NCBI GenBank assembly: GCA_902791885.1
Contig: CADAXO010000098.1
Location: 1,330-9,943 of the forward strand
Length of the DNA: 8,614 nucleotides
Direction of reading: 5' to 3'
From: Oscillospiraceae bacterium
GTDB taxonomy: Bacteria > Bacillota_A > Clostridia > Saccharofermentanales > Saccharofermentanaceae
Positions 1 to 8,614 of this stretch are shown here, in pieces. A program made the position numbers and the translations under genes. How positions within the stretch are numbered: the stretch's first letter is position 1; every line of letters starts with the position of its first letter. The notes beneath the pieces are model-generated. The model ran no database searches and was not told the origin of the DNA. It saw only the letters and a program-made list of their open reading frames with translations.

Positions 1-845
1 GGTTCTGGTGTTACCGTAGGTTCGGTCTCGTTTGTCTCCTCAGTTTCCTCAGTCTCCTCTGTCTCATATGTACCGGATTCGATATCATCAACCAAAGCGA
101 GAATCTGATCTGCATTCCAGCCTGTATAATCACACACACGCTCGAGAAGCTCGGGGTTTTCTGCGAGCATTCTTAAAGGGAAACCCGGAATCTCATCTTC
201 ATCAAGCTCCTCAAGGAAGAACTCGATACTTCCATCTTCTCTAGTCTCATCATAGAGGTAAACCTTGACGCTGTAACCGCCGTTGACATCTGTCTCGATC
301 ACTTCATGAGTATCGGGATTGGTTGCAACAACATGAACACAACCGTCAGTAATAACAAGTGATTCACGTCCGGTATCATCATAGAAAACATAACCTGATG
401 TGCCGCGGATACCGACAGTCATCGTGGCTGTTCTTATATCGAATGTCTCATCTGCCTCAAGGTGCTCCGTAACTTCAAAAAACAGACCGCCCTGAGTAAG
501 ATTCAATTCAAGCATATTTCTGCTCTTGGTAAATTCAACTCTGCTGTCATTCTCAAGAGTAACTATCTTTGTGTCATCGAGACCGACGGAAGCCAATCCG
601 TCATAACCTGTGCTTAATGCTTCACCGCTGCTGAATCTGACGTTATCGATAACAGGCTTGGAATTACCTTCGGCATCTTCAATGCTTACTGTTCCTTCTA
701 TCTTAAGAAGTCTCATCGTTGTCGCATAATAACCGCGGGACATTATTACTGCCGTTATAATACCTGCAATAACCAATACAGAGGCAACTGCGATCAGCAC
801 TTTGCTTCTCACGGACAATCCTTTTAAGCTCTCGATAAGCTTCAT
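1..845 (-). CDS. FecR-domain membrane-anchored protein (C-terminus beyond window)
   Basis: The reading frame starts at ATG 843-845 and stays open to the left edge, giving 281 codons. An AAGGAG site (855-860) lies 9 nt before the start. Residues about 15-35 form one hydrophobic segment after a short basic N-terminus (KLIESLKGLSVRSK), so a membrane anchor with the rest outside the cell is likely. Residues about 44-185 resemble a FecR domain: a KIEGTVSI strand, GEALSTGYDG, GGLFFEV, then FDIRTATMTVGIRGTSGYVF, which matches the family pattern ending in VRGT. A second part (about 200-255) is acidic and has no family I recognise. The last visible residues are a Glu/Thr-rich low-complexity stretch running into TVTPEP. 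FecR proteins in Gram-negatives relay signals to ECF sigma factors; in Clostridia, FecR-like ectodomains often have unknown roles, and no sigma-factor gene is visible here. It has its own promoter and lies downstream of a terminator, so it is a separate unit. Confidence 0.82.
   Translation of the reverse strand, partial: MKLIESLKGLSVRSKVLIAVASVLVIAGIITAVIMSRGYYATTMRLLKIEGTVSIEDAEGNSKPVIDNVRFSSGEALSTGYDGLASVGLDDTKIVTLENDSRVEFTKSRNMLELNLTQGGLFFEVTEHLEADETFDIRTATMTVGIRGTSGYVFYDDTGRESLVITDGCVHVVATNPDTHEVIETDVNGGYSVKVYLYDETREDGSIEFFLEELDEDEIPGFPLRMLAENPELLERVCDYTGWNADQILALVDDIESGTYETEETEETEETNETEPTVTPE
34..66 (-). repeat. Short 9-bp tandem repeat encoding an acidic Glu/Thr tail
   Basis: On the plus strand the units GTCTCCTCA (34-42), GTTTCCTCA (43-51) and GTCTCCTCT (52-60) follow one another, with a decayed fourth unit after them. 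On the coding strand they encode a three-residue period (EET) in the tail of the FecR-domain protein. Such repeats can change length by slippage in frame-preserving steps of 9 bp. The tail is probably a flexible extracellular linker, which is inference. Confidence 0.7.
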
Positions 846-981: not shown

Positions 982-1057
982 TGGTGCACCTCCAGGGACT
1001 CGAACCCTGGGCCCACTGATTAAGAGTCAGTTGCTCTACCATCTGAGCTAGAGGTGC
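982..1057 (-). tRNA. tRNA-Lys, anticodon CTT, CCA encoded
   Basis: The 76-nt minus-strand sequence folds as a complete cloverleaf. The acceptor stem GCACCTC/GAGGTGC has 7 perfect pairs, the D stem is GCTC/GAGC, the anticodon stem ACTGA/TCAGT encloses loop CTCTTAA, the variable loop has 5 nt, and the T stem CAGGG/CCCTG encloses TTCGAGT. The discriminator base is A and CCA is genomically encoded (982-984). Anticodon CTT (1022-1024) decodes AAG lysine codons. It has its own strong promoter and terminator. Confidence 0.97.
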
Positions 1058-1127: not shown

Positions 1128-2579
1128 TCAAACTTTAAGTTCTACTTCCTCAACCTTAAGATCAGCCTCATGAGCCTTGATAAGAGGGTTAACTACTTCG
1201 TCGAGGAAAGCTGTTACCTGCTCGGGGCAGCGGCCGATATAAAGCTTGGGATCTGCTACCTTCATAAGATCGTCCATTGTAAGGCCGAACTCGGGATCTG
1301 CAGCGATTCTCTCAAGAAGATCATTAGGCTTGCCTTCCTGCTTAACAACAGCGCCTGCCTGCATGGAAAGCTGTCTGATCTTCTCGTGAAGCTCCTGTCT
1401 GTTTCCTCCCCTCTTGGTTGCCTCCATCATGACATTCTCTGTCATCATGAAAGGAAGTTCATCCATGATATGCTTCTCGATGATCTTAGGATATACAACC
1501 AATCCTGATACGATATTCGTATAGATACCGAGGATAGCATCAACTGCGAGGAACGCCTCCGGAACAGAGATCCTCTTATTAGCGGAATCATCGAGAGTTC
1601 TCTCGAACCACTGCTCGGAAGAAGTCATGGCAGGATTAAGAACGTCTGCAATGACATATCTGGACAATGAAGCGATTCTCTCGGATCTCATAGGATTTCT
1701 CTTATAAGCCATTGCGGAAGAACCGATCTGATTCTTTTCGAAGGGCTCCTCGATCTCCTTAAGGTGCTGGAGAAGTCTTATGTCGTTGGAGAACTTATGA
1801 GCACTCTGAGCGATAGCACAAAGAGCGGAAAGTACAGTGAAGTCGATCTTTCTTGAATATGTCTGTCCTGATACATAGTAAGAGGACTCGAAGCCCATCT
1901 TGTTGCAGATCTTCTTATCAAGCTCAACACACTTGCTGTTATCGCCTTCGAAAAGCTCCATAAAGGAAGCCTGCGTTCCTGTTGTACCCTTGCAGCCGAG
2001 AAGCTTCAAAGAAGCGATGGCATTCTCTACTGTCTCAAGATCAAGAACGAGATCCTGAAGCCACAGGGAAGCTCTCTTACCTACAGTAACGAGCTGGGCA
2101 GGCTGGAAATGCGTAAAGCCGAGCGTAGGCATAGCCTTATACTCATCAGCAAATGAAGCTACCTTGGAAATAAGAACTACAAGTCTTTTCTTAACGAGCT
2201 CGAGAGCTTCTCTCATGATGATGATATCCGTGTTGTCACCTACATAGCATGATGTCGCACCGAGGTGAATAATACGGTCAGCTCCGGAACCTGCAACCTG
2301 CTTGCCGTAAGAATGAACATGAGCCATTACGTCATGGCGGCGGATCTTCTCCTCTGCAGCAGCATCCTCATAATCGATGTCATCCTTATGAGCCTTAAGA
2401 TCAGCGATCTGCTCATCAGTTATGTCGAGACCCAATTCCTTCTCTGCCTCGGCAAGAGCGATCCAAAGAAGTCTCCAAGTCTTGAATTTCTTATCAGGCG
2501 AGAAGATGTACTGCATCTCCTTACTTGCATAGCGCGAATTAAGAGGGCTCTCGTATGAGGGCTTGGAAGTAAAAGACAT
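1128..2579 (-). CDS. purB: Adenylosuccinate lyase, long eukaryote-like type
   Basis: PurB is a cytosolic homotetrameric lyase that releases fumarate from SAICAR (to AICAR) and from adenylosuccinate (to AMP), acting twice in purine synthesis. The 483 residues span the whole fumarase/aspartase-superfamily fold. Visible motifs are RHDVMAHVH (81-89), HLGATS (105-110), TLGFTHFQPAQ with general-acid His157, KGTTGTQASF (197-206) and the flexible signature loop SSAMAYKRNP (287-296) with the catalytic Ser. From memory, the whole length resembles vertebrate ADSL (about 484 residues; shared blocks include QWFERTLDDSAN and GLVVYPK) far better than the shorter B. subtilis PurB (about 431). The start ATG 2577-2579 has GGAGG (2586-2590) at good spacing. 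It lies 22 bp downstream of the aminotransferase gene and is surely cotranscribed with it. It ends TGA; no clear terminator follows before the tRNA promoter. Confidence 0.97.
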   Translation of the reverse strand: MSFTSKPSYESPLNSRYASKEMQYIFSPDKKFKTWRLLWIALAEAEKELGLDITDEQIADLKAHKDDIDYEDAAAEEKIRRHDVMAHVHSYGKQVAGSGADRIIHLGATSCYVGDNTDIIIMREALELVKKRLVVLISKVASFADEYKAMPTLGFTHFQPAQLVTVGKRASLWLQDLVLDLETVENAIASLKLLGCKGTTGTQASFMELFEGDNSKCVELDKKICNKMGFESSYYVSGQTYSRKIDFTVLSALCAIAQSAHKFSNDIRLLQHLKEIEEPFEKNQIGSSAMAYKRNPMRSERIASLSRYVIADVLNPAMTSSEQWFERTLDDSANKRISVPEAFLAVDAILGIYTNIVSGLVVYPKIIEKHIMDELPFMMTENVMMEATKRGGNRQELHEKIRQLSMQAGAVVKQEGKPNDLLERIAADPEFGLTMDDLMKVADPKLYIGRCPEQVTAFLDEVVNPLIKAHEADLKVEEVELKV

Positions 2580-2601: not shown

Positions 2602-3888
2602 TTAGATAGAAAGGAACTTCTCTACAGCAGACAGTTTAACACAAACCGCGAAGACTTCGACAGCCTTATTTATGTCTTCAAGTGTAGGGAAACTCGGAGC
2701 AACTCTGATGTTGGAATCATCAGGGTCATTGCCATAAGGATATGTAGCACCTGCAGGTGTGAAAGCTACGCCGAGCTCATTACACTTAGCAACTACAGCC
2801 TTAGCTGTGCCGGGTACTGTAAATACGGAAATGAAGTAACCTCCCATGGGCTTATGCCATGTAGCTGCATCCGTGCCTGCAAGTTCCTTTTCGAGGATAT
2901 CGAGTGTAAGCTCGAACTTGGGACGGATGATGTCGGCGTGCTTATTCATGTGAGCCTTAAGTGCATCAAGATCAGGGAGCATTCTGATGTGAGCGAGCTG
3001 GTTTACCTTGTTGGCACCGATCGTCTGAACGCCCATGAGCTTAACAGCACGCTTGTAGTTTTCCTCGTTAGCTGCAATTACAGAGATACCTGCGCTTGCG
3101 AAAGTAATCTTGGATGTTGAAGCGAACTCGTATACACGTGAAGGGTTGCCTGCCTCTGCGCAAAGGCCGAGGATATCAGGGATAGAACCCTGCTTGGACT
3201 CATCGCTGTAAAGGTGGTGTACGCAGTAAGCGTTATCCCAGTAAAGTCTGAAGTCGGGAGCTGCTGTCTTCATGGAAGCCAAACGTCTGCATACTTCCTC
3301 GGAGTAAACGTATCCGTCAGGATTTGTGTAGCAGGGAACGTTCCACATACCGAGAACCGTAGGATCCTTTACAAGCTCCTCAACTACATCCATATCAGGG
3401 CCGTCTTCCTTCAAAGGTACTGCGATAAGCTCGAAGCCGCATGTCTCTGTTACCTTGAAGTGTCTGTCGTATCCCGGAACAGGGCAAAGCCACTTTCTTC
3501 CCTCAACCTGGCTCCAAGGCTTCGGGGAATCGTGCTCACCGAAAACCATTGCTCTCATGATGGAATCGAACATGAGGTTAAGGCTTGAGCCGTTACCTAC
3601 ATAGATATTGTCAGGGGATGTCTTAAGAACATCAGCGAAAAGCTTCTTTACCTCAGGAAGTCCTGTGGGAACGCCGTAGTTTCTTGTATCGGAACCGTCC
3701 TCAGACTTGAAGCCCTCAGCAGAAAGATTTGTGTAAAGATCGTTGGAAAGATCAAGCTGATTGGATGCGGGCTTACCACGGGTCATGTTAAGCGAGAGAT
3801 TCATCGCCTTGTAACCCTCGATACGCTTCTCCAGTTCTGCTTTCTCGTTCAAAAGCTCCTCTTTGCTCATTTCCTTGTAGGACTTCAT
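2602..3888 (-). CDS. PLP-dependent aspartate-aminotransferase-like enzyme (PF12897 type)
   Basis: This is a fold-type I PLP aminotransferase of 428 residues. Pieces of the active site are readable: TRGKPASNQLDLS (36-48) near the N-terminus, NYGVPTGLPEV (70-80), GNGSSLN (98-104) for the cofactor phosphate, CPVPGYDRHF (135-144), Asn189 in YTNPDGYVYS, WDNAY (217-221) with Asp218 for the pyridine nitrogen, Schiff-base Lys260 in STSKIT, and Arg395 in SNIRVAPS for the substrate carboxylate. These blocks fit the group formerly called Aminotran_MocR (PF12897), whose studied members, such as the Corynebacterium glutamicum enzyme, are aspartate aminotransferases. It has no DNA-binding domain, so it is not a MocR regulator. 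The ATG at 3886-3888 has GGAGG (3896-3900 region) 7 nt upstream. It is the first gene of an operon with purB, which fits supplying aspartate for purine synthesis (inference). Substrate choice is not proven by sequence. Confidence 0.88.
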   Translation of the reverse strand: MKSYKEMSKEELLNEKAELEKRIEGYKAMNLSLNMTRGKPASNQLDLSNDLYTNLSAEGFKSEDGSDTRNYGVPTGLPEVKKLFADVLKTSPDNIYVGNGSSLNLMFDSIMRAMVFGEHDSPKPWSQVEGRKWLCPVPGYDRHFKVTETCGFELIAVPLKEDGPDMDVVEELVKDPTVLGMWNVPCYTNPDGYVYSEEVCRRLASMKTAAPDFRLYWDNAYCVHHLYSDESKQGSIPDILGLCAEAGNPSRVYEFASTSKITFASAGISVIAANEENYKRAVKLMGVQTIGANKVNQLAHIRMLPDLDALKAHMNKHADIIRPKFELTLDILEKELAGTDAATWHKPMGGYFISVFTVPGTAKAVVAKCNELGVAFTPAGATYPYGNDPDDSNIRVAPSFPTLEDINKAVEVFAVCVKLSAVEKFLSI

Positions 3889-4014: not shown

Positions 4015-4374
4015 TCAAAAAGGAACAATTTCTACATTTTGTATCATTCCGTCGCGTCTGTGGGTCACACAACCTGCCAAAAAGTGCACATCCATATCAA
4101 ATAACTTATACTTACTTATGAGAACTTGAGTCGTGTTGAGCATCCTTCTCCTCTTCTTCGGAGTGATGGATCTTAAAGGATCGGCATAGACCGTATCCTC
4201 AAGTCTTGATTTGACCTCAACGACATAAAGGTCATTTCCCTTAGTCATGACCACATCAAGTTCCCCCATGTTATGTACCGTGAAGTTTCTGGTTACAAAA
4301 TTAAATCCTTCTGATGCCATCAGTCTTATAACCGCATCTTCTGCTTCATTACCTATTATCTTCGTTTGTCTCAT
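4015..4374 (-). CDS. yraN: UPF0102 (YraN) family, predicted nuclease-fold protein
   Basis: This small protein (119 residues, the usual family length) has the restriction-endonuclease-like core of the UPF0102/YraN family. Visible are GNEAEDAVIRLMASEGF (8-24), RNF (29-31), GELDVV (37-42) with Glu38 and Asp40, and VVEVKSR (51-57) with Glu53 and Lys55, the E-x-K of the PD-(D/E)xK site. The metal-binding residues are therefore kept and nuclease activity is possible, but the cell role of the family is not established. ATG 4372-4374 has AAGGAG 9 nt upstream. It diverges from birA with 26 bp between the two start codons, so its promoter must overlap the start of birA; I found no convincing one. It is followed by 126 bp and then the aminotransferase gene, which has its own promoter. 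Confidence 0.93.
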   Translation of the reverse strand: MRQTKIIGNEAEDAVIRLMASEGFNFVTRNFTVHNMGELDVVMTKGNDLYVVEVKSRLEDTVYADPLRSITPKKRRRMLNTTQVLISKYKLFDMDVHFLAGCVTHRRDGMIQNVEIVPF

Positions 4375-4400: not shown

Positions 4401-5408
4401 ATGTCTATGTTGAGCACCAAAGACATCGTCATATCCAAACTGATCACGGCCGATGATTACATCTCCGGCCAGTCCCTGTCCGATTCACTCGGATTAAGCC
4501 GCGCAGCTGTTAATACAGCCGTTAAGTCTTTAAGGTTCGACGGATATGACATTCTTTCAGTCACCAACAAAGGCTACAAGCTTAATAACCGTCCCAACCT
4601 TTTGACTTCAGGAGAGATGCTCGCATGTCTTTCAGAACAAAGAATGAAGGACGTCATAGTTCTTCCCGAAGTTGATTCGACCAACAAGTATCTTAAGCAG
4701 GCAGCTTATGACGGTGCACCTTCCGGAACCGTTGTCATTTCCGATTACCAGTCCGAAGGGCGCGGAAGACTCGGAAGATCATTCTTATCTCCGTCCGGCA
4801 AAGGCATTTATCTTTCATATCTGATGCGTCCTGCGATACTTCCCGAACTTGTAAGTGAGGTTACCTGCTGGTCTGCTGTTGCTGTTGCAAATGCAATCAC
4901 TAAAGTCTGCGGTATAACTCCTAAGATCAAGTGGGTAAACGACCTTCAGATCAACGGAATGAAGATCTGCGGAATCCTTACCGAGATGAGCATAGAATCC
5001 GAGATCGGTTCAGTAAGTTCCGTTGTCATAGGCATCGGCATAAATGTCAACGAATCCCCTTCAGACTTTCCCGAAGACCTTAGAAGCATCGCATCTTCGA
5101 TCCGCCAAGAGACAGGAAGCGATTCACCTCTTCTCCGTGCTTCTCTGGCATCCGCACTCATAAGCGAACTTGATGCCGTGAATGAAAGATTCCCCGATGC
5201 ACATGATGAGTATCTTGAATCCTACAGCAAGCTCTGCTCCACCGTAGGTCTTCCCGTAAGTGTCGTATCCGCACATAATCACACGTCTGAGATCCCCCGT
5301 AACGGAGAAGTCATTACAGTCAATAACGATTTCTCACTGAAGGTACGGTTTGAAGACGGTCATGAAGAAGATCTTCGAAGCGGCGAAGTCTCTGTCAGAC
5401 GCATATAA
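4401..5408 (+). CDS. birA: Biotin-protein ligase / biotin repressor
   Basis: BirA activates biotin with ATP and attaches it to a lysine of biotin carboxyl carrier domains. The two-function, repressor-type architecture is present. Residues about 5-62 form a winged helix-turn-helix (helices in GQSLSDSLGLSRAAVNTAV, 23-41). The ligase domain (about 84-275) shows DSTN (92-95), the biotinyl-AMP loop GRGRLGR (120-126), KWVND (177-181), and KICGILTE (188-195) with Lys188. The C-terminal SH3-like domain (about 280-335) is complete. Length 335 is normal. Two starts are possible, ATG 4401 and ATG 4407; neither has a Shine-Dalgarno site, and an extended -10 box ends 1 nt before 4401, so 4407 may be the true, leaderless start. 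No biotin synthesis or transport genes are nearby. Its last 14 bp overlap the 3' end of comEA on the other strand. Confidence 0.96.
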   Translation: MSMLSTKDIVISKLITADDYISGQSLSDSLGLSRAAVNTAVKSLRFDGYDILSVTNKGYKLNNRPNLLTSGEMLACLSEQRMKDVIVLPEVDSTNKYLKQAAYDGAPSGTVVISDYQSEGRGRLGRSFLSPSGKGIYLSYLMRPAILPELVSEVTCWSAVAVANAITKVCGITPKIKWVNDLQINGMKICGILTEMSIESEIGSVSSVVIGIGINVNESPSDFPEDLRSIASSIRQETGSDSPLLRASLASALISELDAVNERFPDAHDEYLESYSKLCSTVGLPVSVVSAHNHTSEIPRNGEVITVNNDFSLKVRFEDGHEEDLRSGEVSVRRI

Positions 5409-6093
5409 GATCACGAATACCGTTAAACTTAGCTTCGCCTATCCCCTGAACATTCATTATATCTTCTATCCTCGTAAACGAAGCCGTGTTTCTGTATTCG
5501 ATTATCGCCGAAGCCGTAACTTCACCTATCCCAGGCAGCGACATCAATTCATCAGCTGAAGCCGTGTTTATATTGATAAGCGCATTTGTTCCGCTGCTAC
5601 CGTCAGCCGATACTGAATATTCTCCCCACATGGTCTGATCCTCAGCTCTTATGATCTCATTTGATCCATAGTCCTCATCCTCTCCCGGGATATAGATTGA
5701 AATATTGGACTCAATGATATAGACGAGATTGATCCTCTCGGAAGCGGCATTATCCGTAAGGCCTCCCGCCATAAGAACAACGTCATTAATGATCGATCCC
5801 GAAGCGATCTCATATACTCCGGGGTTATTCACTTCACCGCAGATATAAACGCTTACATAATGCGGCGCACAGGAAGTCTCAACCTCCGAAGAAGCCTCTT
5901 CTAAGCTTGCTTCCGAAGTTACCGTCTCTTCTGATCTTATAGTAACGGGATCTTCTTCGTTCTTAGAACTTAATAATCCGTCTGTCGTTCCACTCAAAAA
6001 TAATTTGTAGCCTAAGCTAATCAGCGTAATAAGAATGAATGCGACCACGTAAATAAGATTCTTACCGATCTTATTACCGTCTCTTCTATTCAT
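5395..6093 (-). CDS. comEA: Competence DNA receptor ComEA (SLBB + helix-hairpin-helix)
   Basis: ComEA is the membrane-anchored DNA-binding receptor that pulls in DNA during natural transformation. With start ATG 6091-6093 it has 232 residues: a transmembrane anchor at about 10-33 after basic MNRRDGNKIGK; an acidic Ser/Glu linker (45-73); an SLBB domain (about 79-138: YICGEVNNPGVYEI, AGGLTDNA, INLVYIIE, IYIPGED); a linker; and tandem helix-hairpin-helix motifs (about 171-232: ININTASADELMSLPGIGEV and IMNVQGIGEAK). This matches the classical order. A longer frame from GTG 6127-6129 (244 residues) exists, but it has no ribosome site and would begin inside a hairpin loop, so I prefer 6093, preceded by GGGATAGG. 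Being next to rsfS, yqeK and nadD reproduces the B. subtilis neighbourhood, but comEC is not in the window. Its 3' end overlaps birA. Confidence 0.93.
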   Translation of the reverse strand: MNRRDGNKIGKNLIYVVAFILITLISLGYKLFLSGTTDGLLSSKNEEDPVTIRSEETVTSEASLEEASSEVETSCAPHYVSVYICGEVNNPGVYEIASGSIINDVVLMAGGLTDNAASERINLVYIIESNISIYIPGEDEDYGSNEIIRAEDQTMWGEYSVSADGSSGTNALININTASADELMSLPGIGEVTASAIIEYRNTASFTRIEDIMNVQGIGEAKFNGIRDLICV

Positions 6094-6096
6094 AAA

Positions 6097-6143
6097 AATC
6101 CTATCCCTTAGGTGAAAGCATAACACCACAGCGGGATAGGATT
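6097..6143 (-). promoter_or_regulatory. Long hairpin hiding the comEA ribosome site / possible attenuator
   Basis: In the minus-strand RNA, AATCCTATCCC (6143-6133) pairs perfectly over 11 bp with GGGATAGGATT (6107-6097); inside, GGTG (6127-6124) can pair with CACC (6114-6111) about a 9-nt loop. The 3' arm holds the only purine-rich ribosome-site candidate for comEA and is followed at once by TTT and the ATG. The same shape, stem then a run of five T, resembles an intrinsic terminator after rsfS. It may thus limit comEA expression at transcription, translation or both. Confidence 0.65.
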
Positions 6144-6168: not shown

Positions 6169-6495
6169 TTACTTTTTGTCCCAGAGGCTCTCGAGGTCGT
6201 AATCGGCTCTTAATTCGGGATGCATTACGTGAACTACGATGTCCTTATAGTCAATCAGGATCCACTTATCACCTGATCTTCCCTCAACATGATCGGGAAC
6301 GATCTGATCCTCGGTCTTAAGTATATACTCGACTTCATCAGCCAATGCCTTGATCTGAGTCGTGGAGTTACCTGTGGCGATAATAAAAAAGTCCGCCAGT
6401 GTTGTCTTATCAGCTACATCGATGATCTCAATATCAGATCCCTTCTTGGATTCGAGAACACTAACGATCTTGTTGGCTAATTCTTCTGTTGTCAT
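6169..6495 (-). CDS. rsfS: Ribosome silencing factor RsfS
   Basis: RsfS (YbeB/YqeL, Iojap family) binds ribosomal protein uL14 on the 50S subunit and blocks joining of 30S, lowering translation in starvation. The 108 residues cover the whole domain, with the typical core DIEIIDV (21-27), ADFFIIATGNS (34-44), a helix with QIKALADEVE (47-56), then VEGRSGDKWILIDYKDIVVHVMH (from about 70) and DLESLW near the end. ATG 6493-6495 is preceded by AAAGGAG with a 6-nt gap; another ATG just upstream is out of frame. It follows yqeK by 23 bp and is probably cotranscribed with purD, nadD and yqeK. Downstream, 75 bp with a strong hairpin separate it from comEA. Confidence 0.96.
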   Translation of the reverse strand: MTTEELANKIVSVLESKKGSDIEIIDVADKTTLADFFIIATGNSTTQIKALADEVEYILKTEDQIVPDHVEGRSGDKWILIDYKDIVVHVMHPELRADYDLESLWDKK

Positions 6496-6518: not shown

Positions 6519-7316
6519 TTAATTAATTATACCAATATCATTCATGAAGTCGACTGTCAGAGGATGTATGGGCAACCCCTTCGATTCGAACTTCTTCTTA
6601 ACTCTTAATACACAAAGACGGACTGCCTCATCAAGATCTTCTTCAGCGATCAGTCTGTCTCTTGAAAGGTCTGCATATGTCCTTGAGGGTTCAAGCTTAT
6701 CGGCAAGATACACGATCTTATCCAGAAGCGTCATATTGCCTCTTCCCGTTGTATGGTAAGTAATGGCATCAAGGATACCCGGATCGTTAACACCGAATTC
6801 TTTAGCTGCCATAACTGCGCCTGCAGGAGAATGCAGAAGCTTCTTATCCGTAAACAGATCACCTGAATTCTCATATGCCATCTCACGCTGCTTTGACTCA
6901 TCAAGTTCCTTCGCACAGTCGTGAAGAAGACCTGCGATAAGCGCACGGTCGTTAAGCGTCTTATCATACTTATTTGCATAGTAAAGACTCAGAAGGCCTG
7001 TGTTGATCGTATGAAGAAGCCTCTTCTCGCCTAAATACCTGTAGAGCTTTATCGAGAATTCGTAAAAGTCTGAAGCAGCCTCATCAGAAACCAGATCGAG
7101 GCTCTTGGCAGTATTATAAAGATCGTGAAGCTTAATAAACTCCTTTACCGTTTCAGGAGACTTATCGTAATCAGCCTCATTCTTCATCGAGCTTGATGCC
7201 GCTTCAACACCTTCGATAGCGAACTTTCTGATATCAGGGCGGAAGCCGAATACTTCTTCAAGTCTTGCAGTCTGCTCATCGATATCGACACCGTCGCCGG
7301 GTCTATCGGCAACCAT
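6519..7316 (-). CDS. yqeK: YqeK HD-domain Ap4A hydrolase with NadD C-terminal remnant (3' part of a broken fusion)
   Basis: Residues about 85-260 form a YqeK-type HD hydrolase, a family shown in B. subtilis to cleave Ap4A symmetrically to two ADP. All expected metal ligands are readable: His102 (RLLHT), His132-Asp133 (LLHDCAKE), His162 (LLHSPAGAV), His188 (YHTTGRGNMT) and Asp206 (LADKLEPSR). Residues 1 to about 70 are the C-terminal part of NadD (LMVADRPG block, then VEAASSSMKNE where ISSTxIR is usual). The frame is open upstream to 7475 without a start, encoding more NadD sequence (EFFWITGSDVL, FDKWHEADKI), so the ATG at 7314-7316 is only the first available one, with a weak AGGA before it. 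The parent gene was a single NadD-YqeK fusion of about 400 residues; the nadD half is disrupted by a deletion/frameshift near 7450. Whether the HD domain is still made is unclear. Confidence 0.85.
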   Translation of the reverse strand: MVADRPGDGVDIDEQTARLEEVFGFRPDIRKFAIEGVEAASSSMKNEADYDKSPETVKEFIKLHDLYNTAKSLDLVSDEAASDFYEFSIKLYRYLGEKRLLHTINTGLLSLYYANKYDKTLNDRALIAGLLHDCAKELDESKQREMAYENSGDLFTDKKLLHSPAGAVMAAKEFGVNDPGILDAITYHTTGRGNMTLLDKIVYLADKLEPSRTYADLSRDRLIAEEDLDEAVRLCVLRVKKKFESKGLPIHPLTVDFMNDIGIIN

Positions 7317-7333
7317 AAGTCCTGCAAGCTTAA

Positions 7334-7666
7334 CTATCTTATCAGCTTCATGCCACTTATCGAATGAAGGAAGAACATCGGAACCCGTAATCCAGAAGAA
7401 CTCGTGATTCTCCTCAGCTTTCTTGTCCTTAATGCCGTTAGCTTTAAGAATACGTTCTTCCCTGCAAAACCAGCTTCAACCGCATTCTTAACCATGAAGA
7501 ACCTGTAAGGAGCCGCGCTCATCACGCGTCCCTGCTTAAAGGGGTTTCTTCCTGAAGGTATAACAATGACCGCATCAACGATTCCGCTTTCGAGCGCTCC
7601 TTTTACAAGAGACTCGTGCCCGTAATGCCAGGGATCGAACGCTCCTCCGAGCAAACCGATAATCAT
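7334..7666 (-). pseudogene. nadD: nadD N-terminal fragment, frame broken near residue 70
   Basis: NadD (nicotinate-nucleotide adenylyltransferase) joins NaMN and ATP to NaAD in NAD synthesis. Residues 1 to about 73 are good NadD: GGAFDPWHYGHESL (7-20) with the nucleotidyltransferase HxGH signature (His14, His17), and PSGRNPFKQGR (37-47). After GFAGKNVF the frame becomes nonsense and ends at TAG 7334-7336. The continuation (ILKANGIKDKKAEE, then EFFWITGSDVLPSFDKW) is in another frame from 7457 downward and runs on into YqeK. Bridging the two frames does not restore the protein: about 17-20 residues with the family's SYTxDT-type motif are absent. The ATG (7664-7666) is 3 nt after the purD stop (TGA CAG ATG), and its nearest purine-rich site is rather far, so translation is probably coupled to purD. 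Confidence 0.85.
7446..7459 (-). other. Deletion junction in nadD
   Basis: The minus-strand sequence AAGAACGTATTCTT can be read in the upstream frame as the end of GKNVF and in the downstream frame as the start of EERIL, both plausible NadD. This is what remains after a deletion between two copies of a short direct repeat of up to 13 bp (GAAGAACGTATTC), one in each flank. The lost length would be about 50-65 bp, not a multiple of three. The junction is itself nearly palindromic (AAGAA, 4 nt, TTCTT). Confidence 0.6.
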
Positions 7667-7669
7667 CTG

Positions 7670-8614
7670 TCAGCCGAGTGTCCTTCCTATGTCGTGACGG
7701 AAATGCGCATCCTTGAAAGAGATCTTGGCTACGCCCTCATAAGCGCCGTCGATAGCCTCATCAAGAGTGTCACCCTCGTCATATACGCAGAGAACACGTC
7801 CTCCGTTGGTTACAAGTTTGCCGTCCTTAAGTGCTGTACCTGCCTGGAATACGAGCTTGCCGCATGTATCGATGCCTGTGATCTCGTAACCCTTCTGATA
7901 GCTCTGGGGATATCCGCCTGAAGCCATAACAACTACGCAGGAACACTTATCCTTCCACTTGATCTCGATCTCGTTAAGCTTTCCGTCGATAACGGCATCA
8001 ACGATATCAAGAAGGCTTGTCTCAAGCAAAGGAAGGATAGCCTGTACTTCAGGATCTCCGAATCTGCAGTTGTACTCGACAACCTTGGGACCTTCTGCCG
8101 TAAGCATAAGTCCGAAATAGATTACACCCTTGAAAGGTCTGCCCTCTGCCTTCAAAGCTTCAACAGTGGGAGTGATGATCTCATCCTGAATTCTCTTCTT
8201 AAGCTCGGGCGTCATGTCGGCACCGGGTGTAACTGCACCCATACCGCCTGTATTAAGACCTTCATCGTGGTCGTTTACTCTCTTATGGTCTCTTGATGAG
8301 ATCATGGGCACTGCCACATTACCGTCAGAGAAAGAAAGGATAGTAAGCTCGGGTCCGAACTTCTGGTCACCCATCATATCGGATACGGCCTGCTTAGCCT
8401 CCTCAAGTGTCTGCGCGATGATAACACCCTTACCGAGCGCAAGACCGTCGCACTTAATAACGATAGGCATCTTCTGTGTTTCAAGATAAGCCAGCGCCTT
8501 CTGCTCGTCATCGAAGATCTCATAAGCTGCAGTAGGAACGTTATACTTCTTCATGAGGCTCTTCGAAAAGGCTTTGGACGACTCAATGATCGCTGCATTA
8601 GCCTTGGGTCCGAA
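7670..8614 (-). CDS. purD: Phosphoribosylamine-glycine ligase, 5' end beyond window; ATP-grasp hinge missing
   Basis: PurD (GAR synthetase) couples phosphoribosylamine, glycine and ATP in the second step of purine synthesis. The frame is open from the right edge (first codons FGPKANAAIIESSKAFSKS) to TGA 7670-7672: 314 residues, about 100 N-terminal ones lying outside. Seen are the ATP-grasp block PIVIKCDGLALGKGV, DHKR and NTGGMG, the catalytic-metal block VVEYNCRFGDPEVQAILP, and a complete C-terminal domain ending HFRHDIGRTLG. Oddly, where members of the family read KFG-xxGxxVVIEEFLxG-PE, this one reads KFG directly followed by PELTILSF (codons at 8351-8359). About 14 residues with the EEFL hinge that holds the adenine are absent, in frame. 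Unless the sequence is in error, the enzyme is probably inactive. It is the upstream gene of the nadD-yqeK-rsfS run. Confidence 0.93.
   Translation of the reverse strand, partial: FGPKANAAIIESSKAFSKSLMKKYNVPTAAYEIFDDEQKALAYLETQKMPIVIKCDGLALGKGVIIAQTLEEAKQAVSDMMGDQKFGPELTILSFSDGNVAVPMISSRDHKRVNDHDEGLNTGGMGAVTPGADMTPELKKRIQDEIITPTVEALKAEGRPFKGVIYFGLMLTAEGPKVVEYNCRFGDPEVQAILPLLETSLLDIVDAVIDGKLNEIEIKWKDKCSCVVVMASGGYPQSYQKGYEITGIDTCGKLVFQAGTALKDGKLVTNGGRVLCVYDEGDTLDEAIDGAYEGVAKISFKDAHFRHDIGRTLG

Follow-up and report, generated by a model that had tools for sequence, protein, structure and literature searches.

Does a nadD-yqeK gene whose NadD sequence begins in one reading frame and resumes in another mark a bacterium that has lost NAD synthesis, or a sequence that is in error? 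The question is raised by the 8614-nt stretch of DNA analyzed here (the window), for which the earlier note left both branches standing. Comparison with relatives supports the second branch, through a further gap in the neighboring purD gene and near-identical intact copies of both proteins elsewhere, while nothing was found in support of NAD loss. It is thus highly likely that the contig is locally misassembled and that the nadD break is a sequence defect, a deduction drawn from assembled sequences rather than from reads.

Organization of the window

The features of the window are collected in Table 1. The gene order from purD to purB is common to the window and to loci L001, from a Clostridiales MAG from yak rumen, and L002, from a Saccharofermentans sp. 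MAG. Apart from nadD-yqeK and purD, the window genes that were checked are open and close in length to the copies in relatives.

Table 1. Features of the window, with strand. The names rsfS, comEA, yraN, and birA are presumed.
Feature	Position	Strand	Remarks
purD	7670..8614	-	cut by window end; 14 residues absent inside the ATP-grasp domain
42-nt in-frame gap junction in purD	8354..8359	-	near 8357, at KF^GPELT
nadD-yqeK	6519..7666	-	split into two frames
NadD N-terminal 73 residues, first frame	7448..7666	-	H-x-G-H motif; 71/73 residues identical to P0003
Out-of-frame tail of first ORF	7334..7447	-	37 residues, then stop at 7336-7334
91-nt gap junction in nadD	7447..7451	-	alignments with L001 and L002 put the gap at 7449 or 7453
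TGA closing second frame upstream	7478-7476	-	
Remaining NadD and YqeK HD domain, second frame	6519..7448	-	303/309 residues identical to P0003
265-aa ORF with whole YqeK domain	6519..7316	-	from ATG 7316-7314, first ATG/GTG/TTG of the second frame
rsfS	6169-6495	-	
comEA-like gene	5395-6129	-	
birA-like gene	4401-5408	+	
yraN-like UPF0102 gene	4015-4374	-	
Aspartate aminotransferase gene	2602-3888	-	
purB	1128-2579	-	
tRNA-Lys	982-1057	-	
FecR-domain gene	3-845	-	cut by window edge

The gap in nadD

Frame translation confirmed that the NadD frame changes at about 7448 and that a TGA closes the second frame upstream, as the earlier note had described. The first frame, read from 7666 to 7448 on the reverse strand, ends as a 110-aa ORF at 7334, and both frames are open across 7475-7337 (139 nt). 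The nearest intact NadD-YqeK among the homologues listed (P0003; 412 aa, head of an 11-member cluster) differs from the window at 8 of the 382 residues compared and has 30 extra residues (74-103) between the window's two NadD pieces. An intact gene of 412 codons plus stop spans 1239 nt, whereas 1148 nt are present in the window, so that 91 nt are missing, equal to 30 codons plus one base; at the DNA level, a 91-nt gap in nadD also appears when the window is aligned with L001, and again with L002. Since these 91 nt are lost after residue 73, the two NadD halves sit in different frames. The alignment with NadD-YqeK of relatives, proposed in the earlier note as a means of measuring the missing segment, therefore upholds its view that one added or lost base is insufficient to explain the break, ruling out a single-base frameshift in nadD, but the 50-65 nt that it had expected to be missing proved too few.

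The absence of a conserved NadD block at the junction, also claimed previously, was borne out by comparison with homologues: the S-x-T-x-x-T block of functional NadD is missing there. The motif of this block had been anticipated as SYTxDT; in this lineage it reads S[FY]T[LV]TT (nine relatives), with SFTLTT in eight relatives at the DNA level and SYTVTT in L012 at the protein level.

The earlier note had suggested that a 13-base repeat, present in two copies, mediated the deletion, an idea that did not survive inspection of the junction. The 13-mer, GAAGAACGTATTC, has a single occurrence within 7380-7520. A scan of 6519-7666 revealed no exact direct repeat of at least 9 bases that touches 7420-7500. 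In nine relatives, the right gap edge reads I-R-[AT]-F-L and not E-E-R-I-L, indicating that "EERI" simply comes from reading the left flank out of frame; the 13-mer is also absent from that edge in these relatives, and a direct-repeat deletion was rejected as unsupported. Judging from the codons of relatives, the edges of the nadD gap may share a microhomology of approximately 1-3 nt.

Predicted function at face value

The two window pieces give partial matches to the NadD model TIGR00482 (41 and 43.1 bits against a cut-off of 112.45), a cut-off that is itself a poor yardstick, as the intact P0003 scores 96.4 bits and 15 of 85 genomes of the genus pass. No continuous NadD frame is available, the frames being split at about 7448. 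The H-x-G-H motif lies in the first frame and the GSD motif, which presumably holds the equivalent of Asp-109, in the second, so that H-x-G-H and G-x-D are not found in one chain. In the P0003 structural model (mean pLDDT 88.1), the lost segment (residues 74-103) takes in the end of strand 72-74, the whole of helix 86-94, and the greater part of helix 97-106. NadD activity would not be expected from the broken gene. In one study, nadD is reported to be essential in Escherichia coli, although earlier transposon insertions in nadD had been described and its essentiality questioned (PMC1249556).

The YqeK part retains a complete HD domain (TIGR00488: 119.3 bits for the window and 119.7 for the 265-aa ORF; cut-off, 70.15). 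The ATG at the head of this ORF lies 17 nt past the stop of the first ORF and has AGGA just upstream; YqeK could be translated from this internal start. The window PurD scores 371.7 bits with TIGR00877.

A second gap in purD

The window PurD is 14 residues shorter than those of L001-L004 and L006, and the corresponding 42-nt gap is placed at the same position in the DNA alignments with L001 and L002. These 14 residues, which fall within the ATP-grasp domain (PF01071), are present in all 120 homologues listed (7999 candidates scored). One of the homologues, P0127, shares all 314 aligned residues with the window PurD, the 14-residue gap being the sole difference; it is encoded on a 26,556-base contig that may or may not be independent of the window's sample. 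Three others (P0128-P0130) show one or two mismatches. Thus, the purD gap is a further defect private to this contig, and P0127 is a near-identical intact copy located elsewhere.

The two gaps are approximately 0.9 kb apart, both within the window's final 1.2 kb, and both are clean, with short edge homology possible. In a survey of alignments with L001 and L002, covering 7614 of the 8614 window bases (positions 1-1000, with the FecR gene, being set aside), they were the sole in-gene gaps longer than 21 nt. The remaining in-gene gaps were at most 21 nt and multiples of three, save one of 20 nt at the yqeK 3′ end (6529, against L001).

NadD-YqeK in homologues and relatives

Among the 120 NadD-YqeK homologues listed (of 1390 found), 116 keep 28-30 residues in the stretch that is missing from the window. 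The other four are shorter proteins that keep fewer (P0039 and P0048, 0; P0086, 21; P0098, 15), and P0048, which lacks the NadD block, is encoded on a 55-kb contig. These short forms may be artefacts as well, or other broken copies. The earlier note had held that relatives sharing the same short intact protein would point to a natural variant: that form was not seen among the 120 listed, and the four shorter proteins do lack all or part of the block. When the frame-shifted 110-aa product was used as a query, four matches were obtained from five candidates, none with its tail, and a natural short variant common to other genomes was rejected; this absence of other frame-shifted copies is weak evidence, as the window's own product was also unlisted and its contig may lie outside that database. 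The nadD junction had no exact match in viral_contigs, a collection in which a bacterial chromosome would not be expected.

In the genus of L001, the P0003 query matched 83 of 85 genomes, with a full-length NadD-YqeK in 81; in the family, 110 of 115 genomes (the 85 included) were matched, 108 with a full-length protein. The exceptions in the genus are G011, where the gene is in two pieces on two contigs, G045, with a weak HD match alone, and G017 and G053, with no match. The G011 pieces overlap (C70:4971-5456 and C141:18971-19825), probably reflecting an assembly break inside nadD-yqeK in that genome. The one TAA flagged inside the gene of G054, and likewise of G059, corresponds to its terminal stop codon.

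As a rule, relatives carry one full-length NadD. Two full-length, differing NadD-YqeK genes were observed in G032 (C75:3342-4559 and C35:4969-6135), which may reflect a true duplication or the mixing of genomes in one bin. Save for this second copy, the genus gave weak additional matches to TIGR00482, most of them in frames of the size of CoaD, which they presumably encode. An alternative adenylyltransferase of the NadM type was rejected for relatives at the model's cut-off, with none of the 85 genus genomes passing TIGR01527 (weak matches in 82; 4 of 14 controls passed).

Six family genomes with no or weak NadD-YqeK match (G017, G045, G053, G095, G101, and G113, three of them outside the genus) also gave no rsfS match in a search with G011 as the sole positive control, suggesting incomplete bins rather than natural losses of nadD. 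Their NF005519 scores were all below the cut-off, the best (93.5 bits, G045) coming from the YqeK-like part alone.

Origin of the two gaps

Two private gaps within 0.9 kb, in two housekeeping genes that have near-identical intact copies, fit a defective contig better than evolution: the PurD gap interrupts a sequence otherwise identical to P0127, and the intact NadD-YqeK differs at 8 of 382 residues. Rather than in the cell, both gaps would then most likely have arisen in assembly, where reads or contig ends may have been joined wrongly, or a gap closed by collapsing sequence, leaving the 91-nt and 42-nt gaps with little edge microhomology near the end of the window. The organism, a Saccharofermentans-like rumen Clostridiales judging by L001 and L002, would very probably encode an ordinary, unbroken NadD-YqeK fusion along with a normal PurD. 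Counting against an assembly error are the cleanness of the gaps and the otherwise open neighbor genes, the four listed homologues without part or all of the block (one of them on the 55-kb contig noted above), and the sizes of the gaps, since 91 and 42 nt are atypical of homopolymer errors. In public genomes, assembly errors are reported to account for many putative pseudogenes (PMC11017572).

Real deletions in the sampled DNA would agree with the clean gaps, their possible edge homology, and the openness of the other window genes checked; they could stem from illegitimate recombination guided by very short homology within a lineage that is minor, dying, or degenerate, or from DNA that became chimeric before sequencing. 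They would also require independent losses in two neighboring housekeeping genes for which near-identical intact proteins exist, in relatives that as a rule have neither a second full-length NadD nor a NadM above the cut-off, and one of these losses would fall on a protein reported as essential in E. coli; such an origin is accordingly judged unlikely. Real loss of nadD, tolerated through a second nicotinate-nucleotide adenylyltransferase or dinucleotide uptake, with YqeK made from ATG 7316, finds some encouragement in the double copy of G032 (1 of 85 genus genomes), in the well-placed internal ATG, and in the YqeK score of its ORF, well above the cut-off. Within the genus, however, a second copy is the exception, G032 may be a mixed bin, and the purD gap is left unexplained, making this reading very unlikely.

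The probability is smaller still that both gaps are real in a lineage that is shedding genes for NAD and purine synthesis through deletions at short homology, is fed nucleotides by its community, and makes YqeK from the internal start. Least credible, with a probability close to nil, is a NadD that is naturally short or one rescued by frameshifting: a ribosome could in principle switch frame within the 139 nt over which both frames are open, but 30 residues would still be lost, among them the S[FY]T[LV]TT block; in the P0003 model these residues extend over two helices. Nearly all listed homologues keep 28-30 residues there, the remaining four being shorter proteins; the window's short form was not seen as a conserved variant among the 120 listed, and the purD gap would again be unaccounted for.

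The nadD break is poor evidence that NAD synthesis has been lost or that a NadD variant exists. Reading it as an assembly error keeps a bacterium from being wrongly reported to lack NadD and provides an inexpensive check for similar cases, namely, a search for private gaps in neighbor genes of the same contig together with identical intact copies elsewhere. Should the gaps be real, the loss of the cell's only NadD would make it a striking example of reliance on others for its NAD.

Comparison with known systems

The two halves of the window gene match P0003, a representative of the NadD-YqeK fusion (NCBIfam NF005519, or TIGR00482 plus TIGR00488; PF01467 plus PF01966) of Saccharofermentans-like Clostridiales, and the order purD, nadD-yqeK, rsfS is that of the L001 and L002 NadD-YqeK loci. 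In contrast to the intact fusion, the window lacks 91 nt after residue 73. Likewise, its PurD (TIGR00877) is that of P0127 at every aligned residue, but without 14 residues of the ATP-grasp domain. With a conserved gene that is broken in a single assembly but has near-identical, intact counterparts, the locus resembles the false pseudogenes from assembly errors described in PMC11017572; it differs from them in carrying two gaps of tens of bases, for which an assembly origin is here proposed as probable.
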